From: Aridibaculum aurantiacum
GTDB lineage: Bacteria > Bacteroidota > Bacteroidia > Chitinophagales > Chitinophagaceae
Length of the DNA stretch: 64,000 nucleotides
Direction: 5' to 3'
NCBI RefSeq assembly: GCF_017355875.1
Contig: NZ_JAFEWC010000002.1
Location: 310,001-374,000, forward strand
In this document: piece after piece, positions 24,749 to 54,646 of the stretch
Numbering within the stretch: position 1 is the first letter of the stretch
Layout: every line of letters begins with the position of its first letter
Program-made: the position numbers and the translations under genes
The notes under the pieces: generated by a model
Databases searched by the model: none
What the model was told of the DNA's origin: nothing
Seen by the model: the letters and a program-made list of their open reading frames with translations, nothing else

Positions 24749-24771
24749 TTATCATTTGGTTTTAGATATTG

Positions 24772-24803
24772 AACCCGCTGCACATTTGCAGCGGGTTTTT
24801 TGT
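24772..24803 (+). terminator. Rho-independent terminator after tsf
   Basis: A perfect 10-bp stem (AACCCGCTGC with GCAGCGGGTT, loop ACATTT) is followed directly by a T run. It closes the ribosomal protein/tsf operon. Confidence 0.9.
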
Positions 24804-25060: not shown

Positions 25061-25120
25061 ATGCTTTCCTACAATTCCCATCCTATAGAATGGCGCTCAG
25101 TTCCTAAGCCTCCATTTTAA
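25061..25120 (+). CDS. Micro-ORF 1, conserved leader peptide upstream of adhesin gene
   Basis: A 19-codon frame starts at ATG 25061 and ends at TAA 25118, encoding MLSYNSHPIEWRSVPKPPF. A stop codon lies 9 nt upstream in frame, so this ATG fixes the start. The core YNSHPIEWRSVPKPPF aligns without gaps to peptides encoded at 36418 and 43541, sharing Y, HP, EW, P, PPF and a V/I. It lies 77 nt before the start of the 1924-residue surface protein, in the mRNA leader if transcription starts upstream. There is no Shine-Dalgarno match, which is normal in Bacteroidota. I do not know this peptide family. A regulatory leader peptide is the favoured reading; a free functional peptide is possible. Confidence 0.65.
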   Translation: MLSYNSHPIEWRSVPKPPF

Positions 25121-25197
25121 GGTTCCTAACGATACTTCCACTTGAAACGCCGCAGCTGCCGTCTGCATCTTTTTTACACCACTAACTATACTAGCTG

Positions 25198-28100
25198 ATG
25201 AGAAGTTTTTACGCTCTTGTTTTACTATTCTTTTGCCTGCTTACAAATGTAGTGCATGCACAAACCTCCACTATTTCCACCACGTTTACCAACAACAATG
25301 GTAACGGGCAGGTAACTTTCAATTTTCAAAATACCAATGGCTACCCAGTACGTATCACTGAGATTGCCAGTGTTACCAGCAGTACAGGGTCTATACCTGT
25401 ACAGGCATGGTATAGAACTACACCAATTAATAGTGCTACCGCGCCGCCAGCTGTTACCACAGCTAACGGCTGGACACAATTTGGTAGTGCAACCATTACT
25501 GCTGTAGCAAATTCAACTACTACCACACCCCAAACTTTCATGACTGGCCTGGACCTGGTAGTACCAGCAGGAGCTACTTATGGTATAGTAGTAGGTGCAA
25601 CAAATTTGCGCTATAGCTCATTGGCTGCGGGTACTTACACAGAGTCAAGTGGTGGGTGCAGCATAATTACCGGAACTAATATTGGTTGGGCAGGGGGAGC
25701 CATTCCGGCTAATTTTGCTAACAATGAGCGTGGGTTCATTGGTACAGTAACTTTTGAATCTGTTGGCCCTTGTACTTCACCTCCTAATACCGGTACTATT
25801 AGCAGTACACAAAATCCTGCTTGTTCAGGTTCTAATTTTACACTAACCCTTGTAGGCGGTACTGGTGGCACAGGACAAACTTATCAGTGGCAATCATCTA
25901 CGGATGATGCTACTTGGAGTAATATTGCAGGAGCAACTACTGCTACGCTTACTACATCTCAAACAGCTTCTACTTATTATCGTGCTATAGTAACCTGCGG
26001 AACAGCTGTTACTTCTTCCAGCGTGCAAATCACTACTCCGGCACTTGTATCTGGCAACTTTACCATCAACAGTGGCTTGCCAACAGGAGGTGGAGTTTTC
26101 CAAACCTTTACTGAAGCCATCAATCATATCAAATGTGGTATCAGTGGACCGGTGACATTTACTGTTGAACCAGGATCAGGTCCATATAACGAGCGGGTAG
26201 TGATACCACAAATTGGCGGCGCATCAGCAACCAACAAAGTAACATTCATAGGTAATGGTGCAACCATCTTGCACAATACCAGCGATGGTAACAACAGGAC
26301 AGCTGTTACTTTTAATGGTGCAGATCACATAGTGCTGGATAGCCTGGTGGTGGATGCTTCTTCCGGAACTTTTGGCTGGGGTATAGTATTGACGGGACAG
26401 GCTGATAGTAATATTATCCGTAACTGTACCATCGTAACAAACAAGAGCTCTACCTCTACCAACTACATGGGTATCCTTATCAATGGTTCTACTACAGCTA
26501 CAGGTTCATCTGGTAATAATGCAAACGGAAACTTAATAGCTAATAACACCATTGATGGAGGTTATCATGGAATCTACTTATATGGTAGCACAACACCTTA
26601 CAATCAAAACAATATAGTTGCAGGAAATAGGGTTTTAGACTTTTACAACTATGGCATCTACTTCTACGGTAATAACAACATAACGATCAGTGGTAACGAT
26701 ATTAGTCGCCCGACGAGAACTGCTGTAACAAGTACTTATTCTATCTATATTTCTACCAATACCAATGCACTGGTGGAGAAAAATAAGATCCACAACCTGT
26801 TTGATGCTGCTACTGGTAGCACATCACTTTGCTATGGTATTTATGTCATTGCATCGGGATTGTCTGCAGCACAGCCAAATCGTATAGAAAACAACCTGCT
26901 ATACAACTTCAATAATGGTGCAGGTACGCAAGCAGGTATTTATGCTTTGGGTTACAATAACTACAACTACTATCACAACACGGTGGTACTGGATGATGCA
27001 GCTTCTACGGCGGGTACTACTTATGGTATGTACGTGTATGGTACAGCCACCAATGTGAAGAACAATATCGTGATCGTAAGCCGTGGTGGTACAGGTACAA
27101 AATATACAATGTACTATTCTACCACTGGCGTTACTACATCTAATAACAACGTATTGCAGATGTTGTCTACTACGGGTACTACCAATGTACTTGTAAACAG
27201 GAGCAGCGTGAATTATACAACACTGGCAGGATGGCAAGCATCAAACAGCAATGCATTTGATCAGCAGAGCGTGGATGTAGATCCAATGTTCTTGAATCCT
27301 TCTGCCGGTGAATACATACCACAGTCGCCAACGCTTAACAATCTTGGTGCTAACGTAGGCGTAGCTACAGATATTGATAACAAACCTCGTACGGTAGCTT
27401 CGCCAGATCCGGGTGCTTATGAATTTAATCTTGGTTCTTGTACTTATCCATTAACACCAGGAACGGTGGTAGCACCTACTACTGTTTGTGCAAATACGCC
27501 ATTCATTCTTACACTTGACAACAGCAGCACTGGCGATGGATTAACCTACCAGTGGCAGTCATCAACTGATAACGTAACATGGACAAACCTGGCAACGCCT
27601 TCAACGGCTATTTCTTTCCAGGCATCACAAGCATCTGCTACATGGTACCGTGCTGCGTTGCAGTGTGGAACGGGTGCTATAGTGCATACTGCGTCTGTAC
27701 AGGTAGCTTCGCCAGCTTTGGTGTCAGGTACATATACAATCAATTCAGGACTTCCCACAGGCTCAGGGAACTTCCAAAATTTTGCTGATGCTATCAATCA
27801 TGTAGCATGTGGTATCAATGGTCCTGTAGTGTTTGATGTTGCCCCAGGCAGTGGACCTTATATGGACCAGGTCGTTATTCCACAAATAAAAGGAGCTTCA
27901 CCAGTAAATACTATCACCTTCAATGGTAATGGTGCTACTATTACTTATTCACCTACTGATGGTTCTTTACGTTCAGCTATTTTATTAAATGGCTCAGACC
28001 ACGTGATTATTGACAGCTTCATAGTAGATGTTTCAAACGGAACTTTTGGATGGGGTATTTCCTTGGCTGGCCAGGCGGATAGCAACACCATCAGGAACTG

Positions 28101-30972
28101 TAAGATCATAAACAATACGACATCTACCAGTACCAATTACATGGGTATCATCCTTAATGGATCGGCTACATCTACGGCTTCTTCTGGTAACAATGCTAAT
28201 GGAAACCTGGTGACAGGTAATACAATCACTGGTGGATACTATGGCATTTATGCCTATGGTAGCACCGCGCCATACAACAAGAGAAACATATTCAGCAACA
28301 ACAAAGTGGAGGACTTCTATTCCTATGGTATCTATACATATGGCCAGGACTCTATCATCATAAGCGGCAATGATATCTCGAGGCCAGCACGTACTGCAGT
28401 TACAAGTGCTTATGGTATTTATCCAGCCTCTTGTACAAATTTTCTGGTGGAGAAAAACAGCATTCACAACCTGTTTGACGGAGCGCCTTCAAGCACATCC
28501 AGTTCATATCCTATTTACGTGGCATCAACAGGACTGGCAGCGTCACCTAACAGGATAGAAAACAACATTGTATACAACCTGAACAATGGCGCAGGGCTTA
28601 TCTATGGCTTGTATGGTTCCAGCTATAATTACAATAATTATTATCACAATACGGTAGTGATAGATGACGCAAGTGCTACTGCTGGTACAACCTATGGTTT
28701 GCTGGTAAGTGGTACAGGCGTTAATGTAAGAAACAATATCGTGATAATAAGCAGGGGTGGTACCGGTGCTAAATACAACCTGTACTATTCTACAACAGGT
28801 GTTACTTCTTCTAACAACAACATCCTAATAAATACTTCTACCGGTGGAACTACCAACGCTATAGCATATCATTCCACTGGTTTCAATACTCTTGCTGCAT
28901 GGCAAGCTGCTAACAGCAACAATGATCCCCAGAGCCTTGAAATTGATCCTGCATTTGCCAATGCTGCCGGTGGTGATTTTACACCAACCAATAGCCTGGC
29001 AAACAATAAGGGTGCAGCAGTAGGAGTGTTAACTGATTTTTACGACAGTACCAGGAGTACTACCACACCTGATATTGGTGCAATAGAATTCTCTACTTTG
29101 ACTGCAGGCAATAACATGAGCGCAGAACAACTTGTAACACCGACGGCAAAAGCTAGTGGTTGTTATACTGCAAGTGAGCAAGTGACAGTACGGATTAGAA
29201 ACTCAAGTTTATCTGCTATTGATTTTGCTGTTACCCCAGTTACGATCACTGTAGAAGTATCTGGTGCAACAAACCAATACTTTACGCATACACTCAACAC
29301 GGGTACAATGCAATCAGACGCAACAATGGATGTATTGATGCCGCAACTGTTAGATATGTCAGCTGCAGGTACGTACACTTTTGCTGCAGCAACTTCTGTA
29401 GCAAATGATGCTAATCCTTCAAACGATGCTATAGTGCCGGTTGTACGCACTAAACAGCAATTAACAGCAGGTACTGCTGTATCTGCCCCTGATTCATATT
29501 GTGCTCAGTCTTCTATAATGCCTATGCTAAAAACAAGCGGCGCTGCAGGATATAACAACTTGCAATGGCTACAAAGCACATCGGCAACTGGAGGATGGTC
29601 CACAATACCAGGTGCAACAGGTACTACTTATCAACTGGCAACTGCACCTACACAAACCATGTATTACAAATTGTCTTCTACTTGTGGTACCAGTGTAGAT
29701 ACAAGTGCGATGATAATGCTGGAATACAATAATCCAACTATCACGTCTACCACGCCAGCTGCACGTTGTGGTGCAGGTAATGTAACAATGTCTGCCGCGG
29801 GTTCAGCGAGCAACATCAATTGGTACAGAACTGCTACAGGTGGTGCTCCTATTTATACAGGTAATTCTTTTACCACTGCTATTTCATCCGATACTACATT
29901 CTATGTAGCAGCAGGGCAGGGTGGTGGTTCTGAATATGTAGGTCCGGCAGATATTGCTATTGGTGCATCTATATCTGTAAACTATAACTACTACCTGACT
30001 TTTGATGTGCTACAACCAACAACTATTGTTTCTGTTGACATTTTCCCTACAGATGCAATAGGTACTTCGGCTTCTATCCAGATTACCAACAGTACAGGAA
30101 CTGTTTTATATACCATTCCATATACTACAACGGTAACAGGTGGTAACAAGCAAACAGTTGTTCTAAACCAAACAATGACTCCGGGCTCTTATAGAATGCA
30201 GCAGGGCGGTACGCATATCAACCTGCATCGTAATTCAACGGGTGCAAGCTTCCCTTATACTTCGTCTGCTGTTTCTATCACAGGTCATAGTTTCAGTTTC
30301 GCAAGCAATCCTACGTTCTACTACTACTTCTACAACTGGCAAGTGAGCTCTGGTTGTGAAAGTGCACGTATGCCTATTACGGCTTCTATCACTGATTGTC
30401 CTGTGCCAGTGAACCTGTACAGCTTCAAAGGTGAAAAACAAGCGAGCACCAACAGGCTTGAGTGGACAACACTTACTGAAGCGAACAATGCAGGTTTTGA
30501 ACTTCAGCGTAGTGCTGATGGCACCAACTTCAGTGCATTGGCATTTGCTGAGTCTAAAGCTGCGAATGGCTTTAGCAACAGGCCACTCACTTATTCTTAC
30601 AATGATGTACGTCCGTTAGCTACAAACAACTATTACAGGTTGAAGCAAATGGACAAGGACGGAAAGGTTACCTTCTCTCAAATAGTATTGCTAAAAGGAG
30701 CAAAGGTGAATGCAGTAACCATTAGCAACATTTATCCAAATCCTGTGAAGAATGATCTGAATGTTGTAATCGCTTCACCTGCTACAGAGAAAATTCAGCT
30801 GGTAGTAACGGATGTTACTGGTAAAGTAATGGCCAACGCTGCTTACCAGTTGCAGGCTGGAGACAATGTCATCAAGTTGGATGTTGAAAGATATTCAACG
30901 GGTACATACATCATTAAAGCAACTTGTGCTAATGGATGCGATATAGCTTCATTTAAGTTCATAAAGCAGTAA
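25198..30972 (+). CDS. Giant surface protein with two parallel beta-helix modules, T9SS type A tail
   Basis: This 1924-residue protein has a signal peptide (MRSFYALVLLFFCLLTNVVHAQ). Layout: an N-terminal strand-rich domain (about 25-195), an Ig-like unit with TYQWQSSTDDATW (about 200-280), beta-helix module 1 (284-745), a second Ig-like unit, beta-helix module 2 (842-1299), a CARDB-like domain starting SGCYTASEQVTVRIRNSS (about 1320-1420), two further Ig-like units, and a membrane-distal FELQRSADG domain (about 1734-1830). The type A sorting tail covers 1842-1924 (NIYPNPVKNDLN, GTYIIKATCANGC, KFIKQ). Each beta-helix module starts TINSGLPTG-G-FQ-F and ends GA-EF. The tail sends it through T9SS to the cell surface. 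It is preceded by micro-ORF 1 and followed by a terminator. It probably acts in adhesion or polymer contact, which is inference. Confidence 0.9.
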   Translation: MRSFYALVLLFFCLLTNVVHAQTSTISTTFTNNNGNGQVTFNFQNTNGYPVRITEIASVTSSTGSIPVQAWYRTTPINSATAPPAVTTANGWTQFGSATITAVANSTTTTPQTFMTGLDLVVPAGATYGIVVGATNLRYSSLAAGTYTESSGGCSIITGTNIGWAGGAIPANFANNERGFIGTVTFESVGPCTSPPNTGTISSTQNPACSGSNFTLTLVGGTGGTGQTYQWQSSTDDATWSNIAGATTATLTTSQTASTYYRAIVTCGTAVTSSSVQITTPALVSGNFTINSGLPTGGGVFQTFTEAINHIKCGISGPVTFTVEPGSGPYNERVVIPQIGGASATNKVTFIGNGATILHNTSDGNNRTAVTFNGADHIVLDSLVVDASSGTFGWGIVLTGQADSNIIRNCTIVTNKSSTSTNYMGILINGSTTATGSSGNNANGNLIANNTIDGGYHGIYLYGSTTPYNQNNIVAGNRVLDFYNYGIYFYGNNNITISGNDISRPTRTAVTSTYSIYISTNTNALVEKNKIHNLFDAATGSTSLCYGIYVIASGLSAAQPNRIENNLLYNFNNGAGTQAGIYALGYNNYNYYHNTVVLDDAASTAGTTYGMYVYGTATNVKNNIVIVSRGGTGTKYTMYYSTTGVTTSNNNVLQMLSTTGTTNVLVNRSSVNYTTLAGWQASNSNAFDQQSVDVDPMFLNPSAGEYIPQSPTLNNLGANVGVATDIDNKPRTVASPDPGAYEFNLGSCTYPLTPGTVVAPTTVCANTPFILTLDNSSTGDGLTYQWQSSTDNVTWTNLATPSTAISFQASQASATWYRAALQCGTGAIVHTASVQVASPALVSGTYTINSGLPTGSGNFQNFADAINHVACGINGPVVFDVAPGSGPYMDQVVIPQIKGASPVNTITFNGNGATITYSPTDGSLRSAILLNGSDHVIIDSFIVDVSNGTFGWGISLAGQADSNTIRNCKIINNTTSTSTNYMGIILNGSATSTASSGNNANGNLVTGNTITGGYYGIYAYGSTAPYNKRNIFSNNKVEDFYSYGIYTYGQDSIIISGNDISRPARTAVTSAYGIYPASCTNFLVEKNSIHNLFDGAPSSTSSSYPIYVASTGLAASPNRIENNIVYNLNNGAGLIYGLYGSSYNYNNYYHNTVVIDDASATAGTTYGLLVSGTGVNVRNNIVIISRGGTGAKYNLYYSTTGVTSSNNNILINTSTGGTTNAIAYHSTGFNTLAAWQAANSNNDPQSLEIDPAFANAAGGDFTPTNSLANNKGAAVGVLTDFYDSTRSTTTPDIGAIEFSTLTAGNNMSAEQLVTPTAKASGCYTASEQVTVRIRNSSLSAIDFAVTPVTITVEVSGATNQYFTHTLNTGTMQSDATMDVLMPQLLDMSAAGTYTFAAATSVANDANPSNDAIVPVVRTKQQLTAGTAVSAPDSYCAQSSIMPMLKTSGAAGYNNLQWLQSTSATGGWSTIPGATGTTYQLATAPTQTMYYKLSSTCGTSVDTSAMIMLEYNNPTITSTTPAARCGAGNVTMSAAGSASNINWYRTATGGAPIYTGNSFTTAISSDTTFYVAAGQGGGSEYVGPADIAIGASISVNYNYYLTFDVLQPTTIVSVDIFPTDAIGTSASIQITNSTGTVLYTIPYTTTVTGGNKQTVVLNQTMTPGSYRMQQGGTHINLHRNSTGASFPYTSSAVSITGHSFSFASNPTFYYYFYNWQVSSGCESARMPITASITDCPVPVNLYSFKGEKQASTNRLEWTTLTEANNAGFELQRSADGTNFSALAFAESKAANGFSNRPLTYSYNDVRPLATNNYYRLKQMDKDGKVTFSQIVLLKGAKVNAVTISNIYPNPVKNDLNVVIASPATEKIQLVVTDVTGKVMANAAYQLQAGDNVIKLDVERYSTGTYIIKATCANGCDIASFKFIKQ

Positions 30973-30984
30973 AATGAAATAACG

Positions 30985-31012
30985 AAAGACCCGGTAAAAC
31001 GGGTCTTTTTTT
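30985..31012 (+). terminator. Rho-independent terminator after the first adhesin gene
   Basis: A perfect 9-bp stem (AAAGACCCG with CGGGTCTTT, loop GTAAAA) runs into eight T residues, 13 nt after the stop codon. Confidence 0.9.
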
Positions 31013-31091
31013 TGAAATTTTATTAGGATATATAGGAATATAAATTCCTGGAATAGGCCTGAAATCAACAAATCAATATTTCACAATTTAG

Positions 31092-31150
31092 CCCGCTGAT
31101 TTATATGCAGCGGGTTTTTTGTTTTGAATTATCTATTAATTCCAATTAAA
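31092..31150. repeat. Direct repeat copy 2, terminator-like
   Basis: This is the second copy of the CCCGCTG, CAGCGGGTTTTTTGTTTT, TTCCAATTAAA series seen after tsf. It can fold as a 7-bp stem followed by a T run, but it lies 120 nt after the adhesin stop and behind that gene's own terminator, so it looks redundant. It may mark the edge of an inserted or duplicated block. Confidence 0.5.
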
Positions 31151-31390
31151 TTTTGCTTTAGTAAATAAGCTCAATTATTAATTTATTTACCAAAATAATT
31201 TTAAACACTAATGCGGTTATCATTAGAATTAAAAGCTTTTACTCCCACACTAAATAGAGAGAAAATAACTTGAAATAATTGTAATTATTGCTTTAAAAAC
31301 AGGTGTAATAAAATATTTCATTTAAAAAAATCTGTCAATTTTTCTATTTTATTAATTACCTTACCACCTATTCCCAAAATAATTCGCTTT

Positions 31391-34300
31391 ATGAGAAAAC
31401 TGTACACTTTCCTATTAGGGAGTTTTTTGCTTTTGATGCAGGTAGCATCAGGGCAAACAAATATCGCCGCTTATCCCTACTCCACTTCTGTTGGAACCTA
31501 CACACCTATCACCGGTACTACCATTTGGAGCGGTACCTGGGATAGCGAGATCAGTGCCTCCTTACCCTTAGGTGGCACATTCACTTATGGTGGTGTAGCC
31601 TTTACCTCAGCGTATGTATCAGCCAATGGTTGGCTGGCTCTAGGTTCTACCGCTCCATCATCTAGTAGCAGTCCTTTAAGTTCTTCAGTAGGAACAGTAG
31701 GAGGTGTAATATCCGCTTATGGTAATGATGGTTCCAACTCTACTGCTACAGGCGCTTCTCCCCTGGTGAGCTATGCCAACGTTGGTGGTGCAACTGGAGA
31801 ATTTGTAGTTCAATTTAGAGATCACGCCCGTTGGTCAAACCGTACAACTGAGAGGCTGAACTTCCAGATCAGGCTTAACCTGGCTACAGGCGCCATCAAC
31901 ATCGTATATGGTTCATTCACGCCTTCAGGTAGTACAGCTACCACATCGCAGGTTGGTATAAGGGGCAATAGCACTACTTATGCTAGTAATGTAAACAACC
32001 TGATGGTAGCTAATATACCAGCAGGCACCACCTGTAACTGGCAGTCACCAGTGACAGGTTTCTCTAATGCAAGCACTATGGTATATACCGGTGACAATAA
32101 TAATATTTCAGTGCCTAACGGCCTTACCTATACATGGACACCACAATCAACCGTGCTGCCTGTTCGTGTATTCTCAGCAGTTTCAGCAATTACAACTACT
32201 AGTGCTACTATATCGTGGACTGCTTCAACAGGTGCTACTTCTTATAACGTTCAGTACCGCGCATTAGGTAGTTGTACATGGACGAATGTACCATCTGTTA
32301 CTACCACTACAGCTACTTTAAATGGCTTAACCCCGAGCACTGTTTACCAGGTGCGTGTACAAGCTGCAGCTGGTGCTGATGTGTCACCTTGGTCGCACAT
32401 TCCTAATTCAGCAGGTACGGGTGATGGATATACTGCTACAGGAACTTTTACTACTACTGCTATACCTACTGACCTGCAGGCAAGCCAACTGGTTTCACCA
32501 GTTACCAATGCAAGTGGCTGTTATACTACCGCGCCTGTTACAGTTCGTATTCGTAATGCCGGTACAGATGCAATTGACTTTAGCACCAATAATGCAACTG
32601 TGAGCGGTTCTGTTACCGGACCTAATGCTACCACTTTCACTCCAGTAGTCATCAACTCTGGTACGCTGGCAGCGGGTGCTACACAAGATGTAGTATTAGC
32701 ACCAACATATAATATGACAGCTGTGGGAACGTATACATTCAATGCTTCTGTTACCTTAGCCACTCCTGATGCTAACCCTGGTAATAATGCCATTGCTCCG
32801 GTTAGTTTTACAACTACTGCCCCGGCTTCTTTACCACAAATTGTAAATTTTACAGGCTATAGCGGAACACCTGCTTCGCTTAATACAGCTTTCCCTGGAT
32901 GGACAGAAGGTTCAGGTACTGTAGTACCTGTGTTTGGTGGCAATGGTTCATTTACCAATACTTCATCTACAACCCAAGTAGGTAAATATGGTGCTGCCGC
33001 TAAGATCAACTTGTACAACGCCACCAGTGGTTGGCTTATTTCTCCTAGAGTAGTACCTACAGCAAATCATAAGTTTAAATACAAGGCAGCCCTTGTTGGT
33101 TATGCAAATGCAACTGCTGCAGATTTTGGTACCACTGATACGGTTAAAGCATTGATCAGTACTGACTGCGGCAATAGCTGGATAACGCTGAGAGAGTTTA
33201 ATAGCTCTACAACACATGGCCTTGATAATTCTTCTAATGATCTACGATTCTTTGAAGAAGATCTTACACCTTATGCTGGTCAGACAGTGATATTAGCTAT
33301 TTATGCGCGGAGGCTTTCAGGTGCTTCTCCTGATATTGATTTTGTAATAGATGATCTTGCAGTGGATTTACCTACTACTTGTTATGAGCCTTCAGGTATC
33401 TCTGTTTCAGCAATAACAACAACCGGTGCAGAAGTACAATGGTCAGCTCCTTCAACTGGTTCTGCGCCAGCATACCAGATTTACTACAGTACGAGTTCTA
33501 CTGTTCCAACAGGTGCTACTACTCCCATGGTAACAGCTGTACCTAACAGTCCTTATACTTTAGCTGGTCTTACAGCTGGTACTTCATACTTCCTGTGGGT
33601 AAGAACTGATTGCGGTACTACTGATGGCGTAAGCCATTGGGCTGGACCTGTGCAATTTGTATCGCTATGTAATCCTGTTACTTCATTCAGTCAAGATTTT
33701 AGCAGTGTTACAGTACCTGCATTACCTGCTTGTTGGGCAAAAGTTGGAGCAGGCGGATCTGCTTCTACACAAACTACCAATGCACATTCTGTTCCTAATA
33801 CGCTGTTCATTAACTCTAGTTCTACCTCTTCACTTGCAGTTGTTTCTTTGCCACCTGTAAGTAATCTTGACCAGGCGACACACAGGCTTACTTTCAAAGC
33901 AAGAGCAAGTTCTACAATCAATGGTGTCATTGAAGTAGGTTTCCTTACTGATCCTTCTGATGCTACTACCTTCAACCTGATAGAGCAGAAGACCATCAGC
34001 ACGCTTACATACCAGGACTATGTTGTAGTGCCTTCACCAATGCCTGGCATCCAGGTACTTGCTTTCCGCCATGCTGGTAGCCCTGCTAATGCAGTGTTGA
34101 TAGATAATGTGGAATGGGCTCCTATTCCAACGTGTGATGTGCCTTCTGCCGTGACCGTTTCAAATATTACTGTGAATTCGGCAGAAGTAGAGTGGACAGC
34201 ACCGACTGTTGGCTCAACTTTGAGCTACGACATCTATCACAGCACTACTAATACAGCGCCTACTGCTGCTACTACTCCTTCAATAACAGGTGTGGTGAGC

Positions 34301-36229: not shown

Positions 36230-36251
36230 AACTACCCATTTGTAATTAAGA

Positions 36252-36278
36252 AGCCTGGCTAAATGCCGGGCTTTTTTT
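36252..36278 (+). terminator. Rho-independent terminator after the FN3 adhesin gene
   Basis: AGCCTGGC pairs with GCCGGGCT (one T-G pair, loop TAAAT), followed by a seven-T run, 22 nt after the stop codon. Confidence 0.85.
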
Positions 36279-36417
36279 ATGTGCATAATTTAATGAAAAG
36301 CAGGCAGTGCCTGCTGGTTTCCCCAATTTTAAGACTCATTAGAATGCGGTTAGAATACACCGTAACAGAAGCTGCCGGTGCTCTTTTAAGATAATTTTAA
36401 AGTTCAAATCATTATTC

Positions 36418-36492
36418 ATGTACGGCATCAAGATCTTCTATCACCAACATCCTGGTGAATGGATACTCATTCCTTCACCTCCTTTTCTCTAA
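36418..36492 (+). CDS. Micro-ORF 2, conserved leader peptide upstream of adhesin gene
   Basis: A 24-codon frame starts at ATG 36418 and ends at TAA 36490. After an MYGIKIF start it encodes YHQHPGEWILIPSPPFL. The 16-residue core matches micro-ORFs 1 and 3 at Y, HP, EW, the V/I, P and PPF. It ends 52 nt before the start codon of the 1961-residue surface protein. It overlaps, in another frame, a possible upstream extension of that protein (from 36455), which I reject. The peptide has no signal sequence and is too short for a folded domain. A role in controlling the downstream gene is inference. Confidence 0.65.
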   Translation: MYGIKIFYHQHPGEWILIPSPPFL

Positions 36493-36544
36493 TGTTTTTA
36501 TTGCATTTGAATTCCCCCCATTATTCAACTATTACTTCTTCATT

Positions 36545-39500
36545 ATGAGAAAACTTTACGCGTTTTTATTTTTTACGATGTGCTTGTTTGGAATAAGTCC
36601 TTCCACTACAGGCCAAACAGTAACCATAGAAGGTACTGGCACAGCCAGCAGCCATCTTTACGGTCCCATCTATACGTGGAATGCAGCGCCCCGTAGCTAC
36701 AGGAGCGCACTTATCTATCCAAAAACTTTGCTCACAGGTATGCAGGCTGGTAGTATCATTACGCAGCTATCATTTAGTCGTGGTGCAGATGGTGTATCGC
36801 TTCCTGCCGGGAACAACCTGAAACTTTACCTGATGAACACCACTCTCAACGATTGGGGTTCTGGCTCACTTCCGTGGGATGTGTCAGGAGCTGTATTGAT
36901 ATACGATGGAGATCCTGCCAACATTATTGGAAGTACAGCAGGTTATAAGGGATTTCCTGCCATGCAATCATTTACCTACTCAGGAGATAACCTGGTTGTT
37001 TTTTCTGAATATGCACAAGTGGCTGCTCCATCAAGTACCATAGGATGGCATTATAATACATCTACCACACAGCCTGCTTATTCTACCAATCAAATCAAGT
37101 ATACGGCTAACAGTAATACGACAATGCCTGCTTCGCTTGGCTCAAGCAATGCCAACCATGCTAATATGATCATTGATTATGCTGCCAGTGGTCCATGTAC
37201 CAATCCTCCTATGGCAGGTACTGCTGAATCAAATCCTGCCACGGCTGTGTGCAGTGGAGCTTCTGTAAGTTTAAACCTAACTGGTAATACAAGCGGTACT
37301 GGTCAAACTTACCAATGGCAGGAAGCGTCAGACCCTGCAGGTCCTTATACCAATTTTGGTTCTGCTTCAAATACTGCATTCGTTACGGTTAATCCTACCA
37401 CTACTACGTACTATCGCGCAGTGGTTACTTGTAATGGCGTTAGCGATACATCGCAACCCGTAACTGTTATTGTTACTCCGCCAATGTCCGGCAGCTATAC
37501 CATCAACAACGGCCTGCCAAGTGGCAGTGGTAACTTCCAGACATTTGCTGAAGCCATCAATAGCCTTACTTGTGGTATCAATGGCCCGGTACGTTTTGAT
37601 GTAACACATGGTGTGTACAATGAACAGGTAGTTATCCCTGCAATACCTGGTGCATCTGCTACTAATACAATTACTTTCAAAGGTAATCTTGCTACTATTT
37701 CTTTCAATTCTACTACCTCTGGTTCACGTGCTGGTATCACGCTTAATGGTGCAGATCATATCATCATCGACAGCCTGAATGTAGATGCAGGCACAGGAAC
37801 TTATGGCTGGGGTATATTACTTACCAACCAGGCAGATTCCAATGTCATTTCCAATTGCCAGGTCACTACTAATACCTCTGCTACAACTACCAATTATGGT
37901 GGTATTGTTATCAGTGGCTCTGCTACTTCGTTAAGCTCAGCTGGTAACAATGGTAACTATAACCTGATAACTGGCAATACGGTAACGGGTGGTTATTATG
38001 GTATATCAGCTTATGGTAGCACAACCACATACAACAAAGGAAATGTGATCAGCAACAACCTGGTGACCGACTATTACTACTACAGCATTTACAGCTATGG
38101 TAACGATAGCATCACCATCAGCAGCAACGAGCTAACAAGACCAACACGTACCAGCGTTTCCAGTTACAATCTCTATTTATCATCAAGTACCGGAATTTTG
38201 GCAGAGAAGAACAGGATGCACAACTTGTTTGGTGGTGCTACCTCTAGTACTTCTGCCTTCTATAATATTTACATCAGCACTTCTGGTACAGCTACTGCTG
38301 TAAACAGGTTGGAGAATAACCTGGTGTATAATATCAACAATGGTGGCGGAGCTATATACGGAGTATATGCATTAGGCTACAACTACTGGAATATTTACCA
38401 CAACACCATAGTACTAGACGATGCTGCTGCTACTGCAGGTACCACCTATGGTATATATGCATATGGTTCTACGGAAATGCATGTAAAGAACAACATCGTA
38501 TACATCACTCGTGGTGGTACGGGTACAAAATATGCCCTGTATTATTCTACTACAGGTGTTACATCTTCTAACAACAACGTGCTGTACATGAATGCACCTG
38601 CAGGAACAAACAACCTGGCATATCACAGTACAGCTTATGCTACACTGGCTGATTGGCAGCAGGCACCTGCAGGTTACGACCAGAACAGCCTTAGCTTAGA
38701 TCCTATGTTCCAGGCGCCGGGAGCTGGCGACTTCAAACCAATGGAGCCGAACATCAACAACATGGGCGACAACGTAGGTGTAACAACAGATATATTGGAC
38801 AGTGCACGTTTGGTAACAGCACCTGATCCTGGAGCATACGAGTTTCAGCTGCCTGCATGTACCAATCCTCCTGTTCCTGGTATGGTATCTACAAGTGAAA
38901 TGAATGCATGCGCCGGAGCAGAATTCACGCTTGATCTTTCTGGTAACAGTGCAGGTGAATACCAGCTTTACCAGTGGCAGTCATCTACAGATAACATCAA
39001 CTTTACAAACATTGGTGCTGCGCAAACAATAACTTCATACACCACATCGCAACAAACCAGTACATGGTATAGAGCAATGGTAACATGTAGTGGAGGCGCA
39101 CCAGTATATTCTGATACAATACTTGTTTCCACGCCAGCATTTGTGTCAGGAACATTTAGCATCAATAGTGGCCAGCCTACAGGTGGTGGCAGCTTCCAGA
39201 CATTTACTGAAGCAATTAACCACATTAAGTGCGGCATCAATGGTCCTGTAGTATTGAATGTAGCGCCAGGAAGCAGCTACAACGAACAGTTTACCATTCC
39301 TGCTATTGCGGGTACTTCGGCTACTAACACCATTACTATAAATGGTAACGGAGCATATATTTCTTATACTTCTACATCATCGTCGGACAGGGCCATCATC
39401 AAACTGGATGGTGCAGATTATGTAACTGTTGATAGCTTATTCATAACAGCTACCGGCTCTGCCACTACAGAATATGGTTATGGTATACAGCTGGTGAATG

Positions 39501-42430
39501 ATGCAGATCACAACACGATCACAAGAAACACGATCATGTTGACATCAACTCCTGCAACTGCTGCATCATCAGCTTTTGCCGGTATAGTAGTAAACAGCAG
39601 TGGTGCTACTTCACCTACAGGTACAGGCGATAGCAGGAGCGATAGTAACTACATTGCCCACAACAGGATCTCCGGAGGCTATTCTGGTATATCACTTACA
39701 GCAAGTGGTACCACCAGCAACATCTTTGGAAACGTAGTTGCTAATAATATTATAGAAGACTTCTACCTGTATGGTATTTACCTGAATGGTACACATGGTA
39801 CTGTAGTAGAAGGTAACGACATAAGCAGGATGACACGTAGTTCTGTTAGCACATTTAACGGAGTGTACATGAGTACAGGAAATGTAGGTGTGCATATTAA
39901 CAGGAACAAAATTCACGATGCATTTAATGGTAACACCAGCAGTACCAGTGCAGCATATGGCGTGTATACTTCAGGTAGTGACGCCACAGCTGCTAATCCA
40001 AACATCATTAGTAACAATATGATCTTTGGTTTCAACAACGCCGGTACACAGTATGGTATTTATAATACAGGCTCCGATAGCGCGAAGTACTATTTCAATT
40101 CTATCCTGCTTGATGGACAGGCTAATACTTCTACCACTTATGTTACACGTGGTATATACCAAACCACCCTTGCATATGGATTGGAGTTCAAGAATAATAT
40201 AATAGTTGTAAGCAGGCAGAGCGTTGGCCAGAACCATGGTATTTATATGAATACTGCTACCACTACTTTCGTATCAGATCACAACAATATTTATGTTCCT
40301 ACTGCTACCGGTTCAGTTAATAATGTTGGATATGCCGGTGGATCAGAATATATCACCTTGGCTGACTGGAAAACAGGAACATCGCAAGATGCAAATTCGT
40401 GGAGCGTAGATCCTCTGTTTGTTTCTTCATCTGATCTTCATCTGATTGCAGGTTCGCCTATGGATGATAAAGGCACTCCTGTAGGAATAACAACAGATAT
40501 TGATGGCGATGCAAGAGATGCTAATACGCCTGATATAGGTGCTGATGAAATGCCATTGAGCACAGGCGTAGATCTTCAAATGGTAGGGTTGGTTTCTCCT
40601 TTATCCACAACTACTTGTTACAACCAGGAGCCTGTTGTGGTTGAAATAAAGAACAACAGCCAGAATCCAATAAGCTTTGCAAACAACAATGCTACTGTAG
40701 TAGTAGAAGTAACCGGAGCTACAAATGCTAACTTCTCTGCAATAGTAGATACAGGTTCACTAGCTAGCGGTGAAACCAGGTTGATAACGCTTAGTCCTGC
40801 AACACTTAATATGAGTGCTCCGGGTGGTTACACTTTTAAAGCTACAGTGGCTGTTAATGGTGATGTGAATCCAGCCAATGACCAGGCGCCAATTGTAACA
40901 TTGACAAAAGAAACACTTGCCGCAGGTAATATAGAAGCTGAATCTACTGATCTATGCTTGAGTGGTACGCCATCAATGAAACTGCAGAACGTGCAAGGTT
41001 ATGGTTCATTGCAGTGGCAGCAAAGTACTACAACGGGTACCGGGTTTGTAGACATTGCCGGTGCTACCGATACTGTATACACTGCAGCTGCACCTATCAA
41101 CCAGACCATGTACTACAGGGTTATAGCTGTGTGTGGCAGTGACTCTGCTACTTCTCCGGAACAAATTATAGTAGTAACCCAGCCATTGGTGATGAATACC
41201 ACCTCAGGTGCACGTTGCGGAAGTGGAACAGTAACTATGAGCGCAACCGCAAATGCAGGTGCTACCATTCATTGGTATAAAGATGCTATTGGCGGAGCAC
41301 CTTTGTATACAGGAAACTCCTTTACCACAACCATTAGCTCAGATACCAGCTTCTTTGTGTCTGCTTCTATTGGTGGTGCAAATGAAACAGTAGGAGCACC
41401 AAACAATTCCATAGGAACGACCAGTGCATACGCTACTGATTTTTATTACCTGACCTTTGATGTGCTACAACGCGTTACCATCAGGTCGGTGGATGTTTAT
41501 CCAAATGTGGCAGCAGGTACATCGGCTTATATAGAAATACTCAACAATACAGGGTCTGTACTTCATAGCATACCATACACTACAACTGTAGCAAGTGGAA
41601 GTGTGCAGACCGTGCCGCTAAATGTAACCCTGCCTGCCGGTTCTTATCGTATGAAGCAAGGTTCTGGTTCAGGTAATTATATATCCTTGTTTAGAAATAC
41701 AACAGGCGGGTCATTCCCTTACCAGTCGCAGGCGCTTAATATTACCGGTCACAACCTTTCTGGTAGCCCGCAGTACTATTATTTCTTCTACAACTGGCAG
41801 ATCTCTACAGGCTGCGAAAGTGGACGTACAGAAGTACTGGCTACGGTGAATGATTGTGCGATGCCGGTAACGCTGGTAAATTTTAAAGGTGAGCGTAAAG
41901 GAGAGGTGAACCAACTGGATTGGACAACACTAACAGAAGTGAACAATGCAGGATTCGAACTACAACGCAGTGCAGATGGTGCAGCGTTTACTAAGCTGGC
42001 TTATGTAGCCTCAAGAACTGTTGATGGCAACAGCACCAGTAGTCTTACTTACACATTTGATGATGTAAGACCATTTGCAGGCAACAGCTACTACAGGCTG
42101 AAGCAACTGGATAAGGATGGTAAGTTTAGCTACTCACCGGTTGTTTTGATCAAAGGAGCTAAAGCCAATTCTGTAATCATCAGCAGCATTTACCCTAACC
42201 CGGTAAGGAACCAGCTGAATATGGTAGTTGCAGCACCATCAGCAGAAAAGGTGAACTTGCTGGTAACAGACTTTAGTGGTAAAGTGGTGATACAGCAAGC
42301 CGCCCAACTTGTAAGTGGCGATAACCAACTACAGGTACCGGTGCAGCAACTGTCTTCAGGTACATACATTATTAAGGCAATATGTGCCAATGGATGTGAA
42401 ACTGCAGTTCACAAATTTGTGAAGCAGTAA
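36545..42430 (+). CDS. Giant surface protein with two parallel beta-helix modules, T9SS type A tail (second)
   Basis: The 1961-residue protein starts MRKLYAFLFFTMCLFGISP, a signal peptide. An in-frame ATG at 36455 would bury it behind 30 residues and overlaps micro-ORF 2. Layout: an N-terminal domain (about 26-210), Ig-like units (215-312), beta-helix module 1 (about 314-768), an Ig-like unit, beta-helix module 2 (about 867-1335), a CARDB-like domain (SLTTCYNQEPVVVEIKNNS-like, about 1345-1455), Ig-like units, the FELQRSADG domain (from about 1774) and the type A sorting tail (1879-1961). It is a close relative of the protein at 25198 in order and content. T9SS should carry it to the cell surface. 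A bidirectional terminator follows. Confidence 0.9.
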   Translation: MRKLYAFLFFTMCLFGISPSTTGQTVTIEGTGTASSHLYGPIYTWNAAPRSYRSALIYPKTLLTGMQAGSIITQLSFSRGADGVSLPAGNNLKLYLMNTTLNDWGSGSLPWDVSGAVLIYDGDPANIIGSTAGYKGFPAMQSFTYSGDNLVVFSEYAQVAAPSSTIGWHYNTSTTQPAYSTNQIKYTANSNTTMPASLGSSNANHANMIIDYAASGPCTNPPMAGTAESNPATAVCSGASVSLNLTGNTSGTGQTYQWQEASDPAGPYTNFGSASNTAFVTVNPTTTTYYRAVVTCNGVSDTSQPVTVIVTPPMSGSYTINNGLPSGSGNFQTFAEAINSLTCGINGPVRFDVTHGVYNEQVVIPAIPGASATNTITFKGNLATISFNSTTSGSRAGITLNGADHIIIDSLNVDAGTGTYGWGILLTNQADSNVISNCQVTTNTSATTTNYGGIVISGSATSLSSAGNNGNYNLITGNTVTGGYYGISAYGSTTTYNKGNVISNNLVTDYYYYSIYSYGNDSITISSNELTRPTRTSVSSYNLYLSSSTGILAEKNRMHNLFGGATSSTSAFYNIYISTSGTATAVNRLENNLVYNINNGGGAIYGVYALGYNYWNIYHNTIVLDDAAATAGTTYGIYAYGSTEMHVKNNIVYITRGGTGTKYALYYSTTGVTSSNNNVLYMNAPAGTNNLAYHSTAYATLADWQQAPAGYDQNSLSLDPMFQAPGAGDFKPMEPNINNMGDNVGVTTDILDSARLVTAPDPGAYEFQLPACTNPPVPGMVSTSEMNACAGAEFTLDLSGNSAGEYQLYQWQSSTDNINFTNIGAAQTITSYTTSQQTSTWYRAMVTCSGGAPVYSDTILVSTPAFVSGTFSINSGQPTGGGSFQTFTEAINHIKCGINGPVVLNVAPGSSYNEQFTIPAIAGTSATNTITINGNGAYISYTSTSSSDRAIIKLDGADYVTVDSLFITATGSATTEYGYGIQLVNDADHNTITRNTIMLTSTPATAASSAFAGIVVNSSGATSPTGTGDSRSDSNYIAHNRISGGYSGISLTASGTTSNIFGNVVANNIIEDFYLYGIYLNGTHGTVVEGNDISRMTRSSVSTFNGVYMSTGNVGVHINRNKIHDAFNGNTSSTSAAYGVYTSGSDATAANPNIISNNMIFGFNNAGTQYGIYNTGSDSAKYYFNSILLDGQANTSTTYVTRGIYQTTLAYGLEFKNNIIVVSRQSVGQNHGIYMNTATTTFVSDHNNIYVPTATGSVNNVGYAGGSEYITLADWKTGTSQDANSWSVDPLFVSSSDLHLIAGSPMDDKGTPVGITTDIDGDARDANTPDIGADEMPLSTGVDLQMVGLVSPLSTTTCYNQEPVVVEIKNNSQNPISFANNNATVVVEVTGATNANFSAIVDTGSLASGETRLITLSPATLNMSAPGGYTFKATVAVNGDVNPANDQAPIVTLTKETLAAGNIEAESTDLCLSGTPSMKLQNVQGYGSLQWQQSTTTGTGFVDIAGATDTVYTAAAPINQTMYYRVIAVCGSDSATSPEQIIVVTQPLVMNTTSGARCGSGTVTMSATANAGATIHWYKDAIGGAPLYTGNSFTTTISSDTSFFVSASIGGANETVGAPNNSIGTTSAYATDFYYLTFDVLQRVTIRSVDVYPNVAAGTSAYIEILNNTGSVLHSIPYTTTVASGSVQTVPLNVTLPAGSYRMKQGSGSGNYISLFRNTTGGSFPYQSQALNITGHNLSGSPQYYYFFYNWQISTGCESGRTEVLATVNDCAMPVTLVNFKGERKGEVNQLDWTTLTEVNNAGFELQRSADGAAFTKLAYVASRTVDGNSTSSLTYTFDDVRPFAGNSYYRLKQLDKDGKFSYSPVVLIKGAKANSVIISSIYPNPVRNQLNMVVAAPSAEKVNLLVTDFSGKVVIQQAAQLVSGDNQLQVPVQQLSSGTYIIKAICANGCETAVHKFVKQ

Positions 42431-42448
42431 CTTTTATGCTATAGTTTC

Positions 42449-42475
42449 AAAGGCCTTGCACTATGCAAGGCCTTT
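42449..42475. terminator. Hairpin terminator between convergent genes
   Basis: A perfect 12-bp stem, AAAGGCCTTGCA with TGCAAGGCCTTT (loop CTA), lies between the adhesin gene and the convergent VOC gene. It carries T-rich sequence on its plus-strand exit, so it could serve both directions. Confidence 0.8.
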
Positions 42476-42519
42476 GTTGTTATTCTAGTTTTGAAAAGAC
42501 AAAATTGAGAAGGAGAAAC

Positions 42520-42996
42520 CTAATGATCCATCCTTGCGGCTTCCTCAAGTTTGGCTATATCCATCTTATTCATTTGAAGCATGGCATCCATCACACGTTT
42601 TGCCTGTTGAGCATCCTGCACATAAATCAGCCGTTGCAAAGCGGAAGGTATGATCTGCCACGACACACCAAACTTGTCCTGGAGCCAGCCGCACCGTTGC
42701 TGTTGTCCTCCGGCAGAAAGCTTTTCCCATAGTTCATCTACCTCTTCCTGTGTTTCACAGTTTACAAATAAAGAAATGGCAGGAGAGAATGAGAACATCG
42801 GCCCGCCGTTCAATGCCATGAATTGCTGCCCTTCTAACCAAAATGTAGCAGTAAACAAACTTCCTTTGGCGCCAGGCATGCTGCCATTGTTATACACTTT
42901 GTGACCTATTTCAGAATTTTTGAAGATGCCGGTATACATTTCAATGGCCTCTTCAGCATTATCATTGAACCATAGAAAAGGAGTTATTTTTTGCAT
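42520..42996 (-). CDS. VOC-family (PhnB-like) protein
   Basis: The 158-residue protein starts MQKITPFLWFNDNAEEAIEMY, followed by FKNSEIG, the typical start of the PhnB-like branch of the vicinal oxygen chelate superfamily. It continues with FTATFWLEGQQFMALNGGP and a SLFVNCETQEEVDELWEKLSAGG segment, and then CGWLQDKFGVSWQIIPSAL. This is the pattern of two beta-alpha-beta-beta-beta units. Members of this branch are mostly uncharacterised and often mislabelled as methyltransferases. No substrate can be assigned. It is cytoplasmic, with no signal peptide. It sits alone on the minus strand inside the adhesin region. Confidence 0.88.
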   Translation of the reverse strand: MQKITPFLWFNDNAEEAIEMYTGIFKNSEIGHKVYNNGSMPGAKGSLFTATFWLEGQQFMALNGGPMFSFSPAISLFVNCETQEEVDELWEKLSAGGQQQRCGWLQDKFGVSWQIIPSALQRLIYVQDAQQAKRVMDAMLQMNKMDIAKLEEAARMDH

Positions 42997-43540
42997 ATAT
43001 ATTTATTTTATTAAATAGCAAACTAGCATTCCTTTCTAAAAACCTGCAGGTATTTTTACGGCAAAATGCGGGTATTTACGGTTTTTCTTATAAATAATTT
43101 CTATTGCTTTTTTGACAAAATAGTAAGTATAACATTAGAAATAGAGCAGGCTATTTCGAAGAAAATACATGAACAAATGATGGTAAATAACCTGCGGAGT
43201 AATAAGCTTATCTAAAAAAATGCAGCCATTATCTTTTTATTAACCTCTGTATAAATAGTAGGAGTGAAACTGTAAAGAAGGTGAATTTATATTATGATAT
43301 ACAATTAAGTTGTAATCTGTATAGACGCATAATGCATTTCAATTTATTTGGATTTGATGTGCTAGTGAGCTTGAAATGCTGATGGGGAGGGCTTTTCAGC
43401 AAATTAATGAGAGAGGAAAAACGTGAGTTGGGAATTTATTCTACATTAAAATTTGCCACTTTTTGTGCCGAGCGGTAAAAAAGTTTGTGAATTAACCTAT
43501 TTTTAGAACGTCATTTTAAACACCCCCAAATAATTCATTG
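42997..43540. other. AT-rich intergenic region upstream of micro-ORF 3
   Basis: These 544 bases lie between the divergent VOC gene and micro-ORF 3. A short imperfect direct repeat (about GGTATTTTTACGG and GGTATTTACGG) occurs at 43051-43082. No gene is supported. The promoter of the giant type B operon should lie near the right end, but I cannot place it with confidence. Confidence 0.5.
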
Positions 43541-43606
43541 ATGTTTTTTTACAAAGAGCACCCTATCGAGTGGCGTTTGATTCCTTCACCGCCTTTTCTA
43601 CAGTAG
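43541..43606 (+). CDS. Micro-ORF 3, conserved leader peptide upstream of giant type B operon
   Basis: A 21-codon frame starts at ATG 43541 and ends at TAG 43604. After MFF it encodes YKEHPIEWRLIPSPPFLQ. It shares HPIEWR with micro-ORF 1 and IPSPPFL with micro-ORF 2. Against micro-ORF 1 the codons for H (CAC/CAT), E (GAG/GAA), R (CGT/CGC) and I (ATC/ATA) differ only synonymously. This is the pattern expected of a translated peptide. The stop lies 87 nt before the ATG of the 3643-residue protein, with two T runs in between. Function unknown; a leader peptide role is inferred. Confidence 0.68.
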   Translation: MFFYKEHPIEWRLIPSPPFLQ

Positions 43607-54625: not shown

Positions 54626-54646
54626 TAACTGCACACATACTATACT

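Follow-up and report, generated by a model that had tools for sequence, protein, structure and literature searches.

RESULTS

Micro-ORFs upstream of giant surface-protein genes

The window analyzed here, a 64,000-nucleotide (nt) stretch of the Aridibaculum aurantiacum genome (contig NZ_JAFEWC010000002.1, positions 310,001 to 374,000), contains three very short open reading frames (micro-ORFs), each situated just ahead of a giant gene for a surface protein. The initial annotation, made from the sequence alone, had reported frames of 19, 24, and 21 codons, an ungapped alignment of their peptides with nine invariant residues, and a position on the same strand 52 to 87 nt before the ATG of a giant gene. 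All of this was confirmed: the invariant residues are Y, H, P, E, W, P, P, P, and F, the common core reads Y-x-x-H-P-x-E-W-x-x-[IV]-P-x-P-P-F, and the stop-to-ATG distances are 77, 52, and 87 nt, respectively. The downstream genes are likewise giants as described, encoding proteins of 1924, 1961, and 3643 amino acids (aa) with sorting domains of the type IX secretion system (T9SS).

25061..25120, plus strand: micro-ORF 1 (W25), 19 aa, MLSYNSHPIEWRSVPKPPF, with the stop codon directly after PPF
25198..30972, plus strand: giant surface protein behind micro-ORF 1, 1924 aa, with beta-helix, Ig_7, and Por_Secre_tail domains (Pfam)
36418..36492, plus strand: micro-ORF 2 (W36), 24 aa, MYGIKIFYHQHPGEWILIPSPPFL, then stop
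36545..42430, plus strand: giant surface protein behind micro-ORF 2, 1961 aa, with beta-helix, Ig_7, and Por_Secre_tail domains (Pfam)
43541..43606, plus strand: micro-ORF 3 (W43), 21 aa, MFFYKEHPIEWRLIPSPPFLQ, then stop
43694..54625, plus strand: giant surface protein behind micro-ORF 3, 3643 aa, with Ig_7, IgGFc_binding, PKD, and CHU_C domains (Pfam)

The signal peptide of the second of these giants begins at 36545 and not at GTG 36455 of the ORF list. The proposed pairing of micro-ORF and giant held for all three micro-ORFs, but the converse failed, as the giant at 31391-36229 has none. A degenerate DNA pattern of the motif matched three times in the window and in none of 100 shuffles. Throughout the 4.86-Mb genome, its only matches were the same three sites, even when two mismatches were allowed, and a reversed control pattern gave no match in that genome. 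The view that no described family carries this motif also stood, with four leader peptides tried against Pfam and NCBIfam giving no match; Rfam covariance models, run over the whole window at the gathering threshold, gave none either.

Copies in other genomes

Further copies were found in a sample of 394 genomes of the same family (own genome included), drawn evenly from a larger group. A codon pattern with up to two mismatches matched in four of them, namely, the own genome and three genomes of one other genus (G181, G232, and G333), each of which has Y in place of H; within that genus, 3 of 10 genomes have a pattern match. The reversed control pattern matched in 1 of the 394. When a slightly looser exact pattern was run over a collection of 84,980 species, eight stretches matched: three were the G181, G232, and G333 genomes, one was a new copy (L012) on a 3.5-kb contig of the Bacteroidia metagenome-assembled genome (MAG) BROCD021, and four (L008, L009, L013, and L014) were rejected as unrelated, since each overlaps another frame on one of the two strands (for L009, a frame of just 84 aa) and does not precede a secreted giant.

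A profile built from six rows and searched over an equal number of family genomes added two near-identical, diverged copies in G357, from the same other genus (E = 6e-6), as well as a half match in G010 (E = 2.6e-4). At E values up to 1, some match appeared in 193 of the 394 genomes, so chance hits are plentiful at that threshold. Among the hits ranked below G010, the 24 fetched as loci (E of 0.001 or more) were examined. Most lie in or antisense to coding frames; L028 (E = 0.028) lies outside long ORFs, and two related short frames (L029 and L044) were rejected as antisense within a gene. The locus L022 (G329:C11, reverse strand, frame 1471-1578 of the reversed locus; E = 0.0027) reads FYRHLPIEWISV in a frame that contains SSFYRHLPIEWISV. 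It has half of the motif, no start codon, no PPF, and no covering ORF, and 130 nt separate it from a downstream 199-aa frame whose start is signal-like; it is possibly a distant or decayed relative, the sole such candidate among the lower-ranked hits examined.

Profile scans of wider taxa, both samples of species, yielded no further member among 396 genomes of the order (one hit at E = 0.008, antisense within an ORF) or 395 genomes of the class (six other hits at E = 0.0016-0.0098, each of which overlaps a longer ORF). In 58 relatives of the L012 genome, the profile recovered that genome's own hit and five weak ones (E = 0.0098-0.084), all overlapping longer ORFs. The total thus stands at nine strong copies (three in the window, one each in G181, G232, G333, and L012, and two in G357) and one doubtful copy (G010). 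Outside the own genome, the four copies that are otherwise true to the motif have Y for H, as does G357, and the general motif is [HY]PxEWxx[IV]PxPPF. The initial annotation had named a lack of further copies in related genomes as evidence against its proposal; copies are in fact present in four other genomes of the family and on one MAG contig. An origin in phages or plasmids was rejected: viral contigs had no exact pattern match, tblastn of one 25-aa peptide gave only hits of E = 0.7-4 in phages and plasmids, and no plasmid DNA similar to the W43 leader was found.

Genomic context of the outside copies

Where the contig extends far enough, which is the case for eight strong copies, the micro-ORF is followed on its own strand by a gene with a signal-peptide-like start. 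The gap to that gene is 89 nt in G181, 227 nt in G232, 182 nt in G333, 73 nt in L012, and 64 nt in G357. The downstream gene encodes 4010 aa in G232 and no fewer than 4155 aa in G333 and 1478 aa in G357; the G181 contig ends 321 aa into its gene, and behind the second G357 copy the contig ends before any gene. In L012, the downstream frame has only 276 aa. Inspected by eye, this contig is probably chimeric, passing from a surface-protein frame (L012:2000-2350) through odd sequence into an unrelated response-regulator gene, and the organism of the L012 copy is therefore uncertain.

The downstream genes fall into a single homologous group over their first 300 residues (blastp without composition correction and with repeats included; some pairs gave no hit). 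The giant behind W43 resembles those behind the G232 and G333 copies, and the gene after the G232 giant begins, by eye, like window gene 54647; from these sequence likenesses, the W43 and G232 loci look syntenic. Two side observations concern the other genus. Near-identical leader copies lie at contig ends in G357 (G357:C55, L045, and C106, L046), which suggests that a repeated leader-plus-adhesin unit broke the assembly. In G232 and G333 (L004 and L006), the micro-ORF and giant adjoin rpsL-rpsG or rpsG, respectively (by eye), a ribosomal-protein neighborhood conserved in both genomes.

Selection on the peptide

Comparison of the copies supports the conclusion that selection acts on the peptide. 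Six copies (W25, W36, W43, G232, G181, and L012) made up the test set, with G333 and G357 omitted as redundant or degenerate. Their BLOSUM pair score was 993 in frame 0, compared to 8 to 505 in the other five frames, and it exceeded all 5000 of 5000 column shuffles, the maximum of which was 683. Pair mismatch at codon positions 1, 2, and 3 was 0.32, 0.24, and 0.53 (column-permutation P of ~0.01), with similar values for all eight rows (0.30, 0.28, and 0.52; P = 0.008). The residues E, W, Y, and F are invariant among the six copies, and at the eight residues invariant among them, every difference falls at a third codon position. Pair identity was 0.64 in the core, 0.32 in the upstream flank, and 0.29 in the downstream flank. 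Between G232 and G333, 22 codons contain eight differences, seven of which are synonymous (2.2 expected; P = 0.00045).

These values carry a selection bias, in that four copies were found with a codon-written pattern that favors intact residues and the first three had been chosen for peptide likeness. At the pattern-free codons of G232 and G333, five of six differences are synonymous (probability of ~0.007, by hand, at a per-change rate of 0.275); thus, the signal survives the search bias but is weaker. The earlier argument that the pattern of change favors selection on the peptide and not a DNA or RNA motif is borne out by the excess variation at third positions, the frame-0 score, and the G232/G333 comparison. 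The two G357 copies, found by profile, nevertheless differ at three motif residues.

Anatomy and transcription of the leaders

The conserved part forms the C-terminal end of the frames, and the N-terminal lengths vary. The number of codons between PPF and the stop is zero in W25, one in W36, two in W43 and L012, four in G181 and G333, five in G232, and six in G357. Seven of the nine strong copies have an in-frame ATG; in five, it lies 6 to 10 codons before the H/Y residue, giving peptides of 19-26 aa with no hydrophobic stretch (by eye). In G181, a TTG is close by and ATGs occur at a greater distance upstream. Read from its sole in-frame ATG, L012 would encode 49 aa, including a hydrophobic N-terminal stretch that ends 25 residues before the second Pro of PPF. 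Across 21 pairs, the 16 nt before the start codons stand out as similar only in W25/G333 (11/16) and G232/G333 (10/16). The sequence GAGGAG just before the possible TTG start of the G181 micro-ORF (L005:1460-1490) is odd for a phylum without Shine-Dalgarno use.

G232 and G333 share a conserved DNA block consisting of a Bacteroidetes-type promoter-like match, TTTG-19-TATTTTTA, a 5' untranslated region, and the micro-ORF; the flavobacterial sigma-A minus-7 consensus is TAnnTTTG (PMC9723704). Conservation is largely gone after the PPFL codons and through most of the ~200-nt spacer, with short stretches returning before the giant start. Judged from this block, the micro-ORF and giant are likely cotranscribed. 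In the window, two terminator-like hairpins precede micro-ORF-giant pairs.

24771..24798, plus strand: terminator-like hairpin of 12 pairs, which would end an upstream transcript before micro-ORF 1
42448..42476, plus strand: terminator-like hairpin of 13 pairs, between the giant at 36545-42430 and micro-ORF 3

Terminator-like sites in the region numbered 15, compared to 14.3 expected from shuffles, and these two hairpins are the longest. A scan of the three window spacers found no terminator-like site.

Distribution among homologous giants

A search with an N-terminal profile of the giants gave matches in 119 of 294 family genomes, and 30 giant loci were examined, one per genome, taken as the best scores of the 119 matched genomes and including the own genome and G181. 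The motif occurred at 2 of these 30 starts, both already known copies. Eight regions upstream of homologues, from four genomes of the other genus, are also without it (two of the regions repeat loci of the 30); a lone PIEW lies ~630 nt upstream in one of the eight. Within the own genome, the profile found two genes at an E of 1e-8 or below (9 of 19 candidates scored), both with a micro-ORF. A general T9SS leader was rejected, since the same genome has 97 T9SS-tail matches over the cutoff (73 to PF18962 and 24 to PF13585) but only three micro-ORFs. The leader of a G181 paralogue (L101) has ATTGAATTTTAAA and the preceding GAGGAG in common with the start region of the G181 micro-ORF and is without the core, which looks like a loss. 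Another conserved upstream ORF (uORF) before homologous giants was rejected, as a comparison of 424 upstream frames from 29 loci brought up mainly apparent C-termini of preceding genes and close-relative pairs. The micro-ORF is a patchy, narrowly distributed accessory of giant genes.

DISCUSSION

A putative pausing leader peptide

Taken across genomes, the micro-ORFs form what by sequence is a family of peptide-coding-like leader ORFs before giant T9SS adhesins, and they look like new regulatory leader peptides absent from the databases searched. Their position, peptide-level conservation, and cis linkage to one adhesin family are supported; from these, we infer translation, pausing, the direction of the effect, and a signal. 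We give about an even chance to the reading that the leader peptide acts in cis and that its nascent chain, by pausing ribosomes at Pro-Pro-Phe, gates adhesin expression. The mRNA of each giant adhesin would carry the micro-ORF in its 5' leader, to be translated before the adhesin. The nascent chain, Y..[HY]P.EW..[IV]P, would contact the exit tunnel, and this contact together with a slow Pro-Pro bond before Phe would pause or arrest the ribosome at PPF. Such a pause would gate the amount of a costly adhesin, most likely with ribosomes held 50-230 nt before the adhesin start, where they may limit loading or keep Rho off the leader. Release would be set by a translation-related signal such as EF-P capacity, the supply of Pro or Trp, or an unknown ligand.

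Pausing is suggested by the location of the frames, the constraint on ~16 residues by Pro-Pro, the invariant Y, E, W, and F at tunnel distance, the free stop, and the single copy per gene. Two features expected of a cis-acting leader peptide are seen, namely, a short ORF just upstream on the same strand and selection on its peptide, the latter with the bias of the search pattern. Placement on a shared transcript is judged from promoter and terminator matches, which are poor for the window copies. Since there is one copy per gene and the genes are homologous, a cis element fits better than a diffusible product, and the variable stop position after PPF argues against stop-codon arrest. Stalling at proline runs depends on upstream residues (PMC4176338). 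Initiation in Bacteroidetes is tuned by mRNA structure with no Shine-Dalgarno sequences, as described in the available text of PMC6847099; this, together with the lack of a common leader structure, points to a pause that acts on ribosome traffic or Rho access and not through a hairpin masking a Shine-Dalgarno sequence. A wider idea, that arrest leaders gate secretion substrates and not the machinery, tuning adhesin synthesis to the translation state without Shine-Dalgarno masking or an RNA switch, is possible but tentative, at somewhat under an even chance.

Several observations weigh against regulated pausing in a cotranscribed leader. Of the 30 homologous giant starts, 28 are without the element, which is thus dispensable. 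Both G357 copies, in addition to their three altered motif residues, have no in-frame ATG, GTG, or TTG, and the G010 candidate has the first half of the motif only, with an unrelated gene downstream. For the window copies, cotranscription is not secured, because the best promoter matches lie inside or downstream of the micro-ORF (scores of 8.0, 8.0, and, in the W43 spacer, 10.0). The W43 site scores as well as the G232/G333 site and, if real, speaks against a leader function there. Folding of eight leaders gave no shared structure (z-scores scattered from -3.1 to +1.3), and the 48 nt from the Phe codon form a locally stable fold only in G181 (z = -3.8), G232 (-2.1), and W36 (-2.1); on these grounds, an RNA switch or attenuator was rejected. 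Sequestration of the giant's start site by the PPFL codons was rejected as well, these codons being the best pairing partner in one of eight copies (W36), within about the best tenth in G333, L012, and G232, and unremarkable in the other four. As for PPF as a strong stall motif, the word is absent from the available text of two proline-stalling papers (PMC4176338 and PMC11611912).

Alternative explanations

Amino acid supply or EF-P capacity could set leader occupancy and adhesin expression through slow Pro (and Trp) codons, with no recognition in the tunnel. This fits the four invariant Pro and one invariant Trp in the 13-residue core of the six copies, as well as the precedent of the proline-containing leader MgtL, which is assisted by EF-P/EfpL (PMC11611912). 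However, the same six copies keep Glu, Phe, and Tyr just as strictly as Pro, and the invariance of E, W, Y, and F is more than a pure codon-supply attenuator needs. The window spacers have no terminator-like site, and the downstream genes are not biosynthetic, leaving this explanation fairly unlikely. Similar differences separate the micro-ORFs from his/trp attenuators: the three window spacers are without a terminator/antiterminator site, and what follows is not a biosynthetic or transport operon. Flavobacterial transcriptomics found signs of leader-peptide attenuation upstream of amino acid biosynthesis operons (PMC9723704).

A plain uORF, the translation of which opens the mRNA or loads ribosomes for reinitiation with little regard to the peptide encoded, is unlikely. 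The short distances of 52-89 nt seen for six of the eight copies measured would suit it, as would the structure-tuned initiation of Bacteroidetes noted above (PMC6847099), but the gaps of 182 nt (G333) and 227 nt (G232) would not, and such a uORF would not keep eight residues invariant in six copies while synonymous sites change.

Strong peptide conservation is also what a trans-acting small protein would display, such as one that partners the adhesin in the membrane or in secretion, and L012 read from its only in-frame ATG has the 49 aa and hydrophobic N-terminal stretch that might be expected of one. Against this, one genome has three separate copies, each beside its own giant, five ATG-started copies are merely 19-26 aa long, and the frames differ in length, with the conserved part at their C-terminal ends; we consider a trans-acting product quite unlikely.

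The patchy distribution raises the prospect that the element is a relic, a once-useful leader that was carried along when adhesin genes duplicated and is now in decay. Its presence at 2 of 30 homologous giant starts (30 genomes), its absence from the eight other-genus upstream regions, the G181 paralogue leader that keeps the start-region stretch with the core gone, and the G357 copies with three changed motif residues and no usual start are all in line with decay. That seven of eight G232/G333 differences are synonymous while the adjoining spacer has diverged is not, and we judge this explanation distinctly unlikely.

A DNA or RNA motif (a protein binding site, structured leader, or recombination site) open in frame by chance is highly improbable, as one reverse-strand frame does score 505 but frame 0 scores 993, above 5000 of 5000 column shuffles, variation is codon periodic, no Rfam model matched in the window at the gathering threshold, and no consistent fold was seen.

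Comparison with known leader peptides

The nearest described class to the putative pausing leaders comprises the arrest peptides that monitor Sec and YidC (SecM, MifM, VemP, ApcA, ApdA/ApdP, and the RQH family). In both cases, a short, patchily distributed uORF with a variable N-terminus and a conserved, proline-containing C-terminal block lies in cis to a protein-export gene, and conservation of the C-terminal sequence among homologues, one of the published criteria for the class, was found here. A survey of more than 30,000 genomes, as its available text describes it, was confined to uORFs of secA, secDF, and yidC that carry a localization signal over 30 residues ahead of the conserved end; those of its clusters that are restricted to Bacteroidota terminate in NSP or NAP (PMC10987492). 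In contrast, the genes downstream of the micro-ORFs encode T9SS surface proteins or their homologues and not secA, secDF, or yidC products. The five near-ATG peptides have no secretion signal or transmembrane segment (by eye) and are shorter as a whole than the >30 residues between signal and arrest site in that class, whereas L012 has such a segment, at a distance of 25 residues. Furthermore, the motif is xPPF, as opposed to RAPP-like, NSP-stop, or NAP-stop. By the published criteria, therefore, the family is not a member of this class, although by analogy it may work like one.

Resemblances to other regulators are partial. In TnaC, an essential Trp lies upstream of a proline stall site, and arrest occurs at the stop codon. 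The micro-ORF peptides are of the ~20-aa size of TnaC and other ligand-sensing leaders, but their stop lies 0-6 codons past PPF. MgtL, the mgtA leader, differs from the micro-ORFs in sequence and in the type of gene controlled; no structured leader was found for the micro-ORFs. MgtL is nevertheless also a short leader with prolines (PMC11611912). CutF, a copper-sensing nascent exported protein of Rhodobacter, has a proline-rich C-terminal motif upstream of a secreted-protein gene and exerts translational control in cis (PMC9973294), as is proposed for the micro-ORFs, but its Sec signal, CxxxC copper site, and stem-loop over the next Shine-Dalgarno sequence (PMC9973294) are not shared features of the micro-ORFs. 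The leader toiL acts via an RNA structure over the ribosome binding site (PMC12121999), and no such structure was found in the micro-ORF leaders. The WPPP stall motif (PMC11669330) likewise combines Trp and consecutive Pro near the peptidyl transferase center, with a spacing different from the W-x-x-[IV]-P-x-P-P-F of the micro-ORFs.

T9SS adhesins of 2000-4000 residues must be costly, and our literature search found nothing on the control of their synthesis; nor, within its limited coverage without preprints, were there recognized leader peptides of T9SS substrates among the matches listed. A conserved leader peptide would offer a concrete, testable control point for giant adhesin synthesis and possibly a new motif for the arrest of a ribosome that works without reliance on Shine-Dalgarno pairing. 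Since the survey mentioned above was, according to its available text, limited to secA/secDF/yidC uORFs with a localization signal (PMC10987492), such a family would have been missed there, and secretion-substrate leaders may represent a broader class that is still unexplored.

Other genes of the cluster

The remaining genes of the giant cluster in the window are as follows.

31391..36229, plus strand: fourth giant of the cluster, 1612 aa, with fn3 and Por_Secre_tail domains, its upstream region without a micro-ORF
54647..61525, plus strand: next giant, 2292 aa, with PKD, IgGFc_binding, and CHU_C domains, its own micro-ORF absent
61570..62574, plus strand: PorP/SprF-type T9SS membrane protein at the cluster end (Pfam)

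Across 43694-61525, two IgGFc_binding/PKD giants of 3643 and 2292 aa thus lie 21 nt apart and are followed by the PorP/SprF gene, and a look-alike pair of these giants stands side by side in G232 (by eye). At another place in this genome (G000:C1:1150959-1151177), a 7274-aa open frame ends in a T9SS sorting domain.

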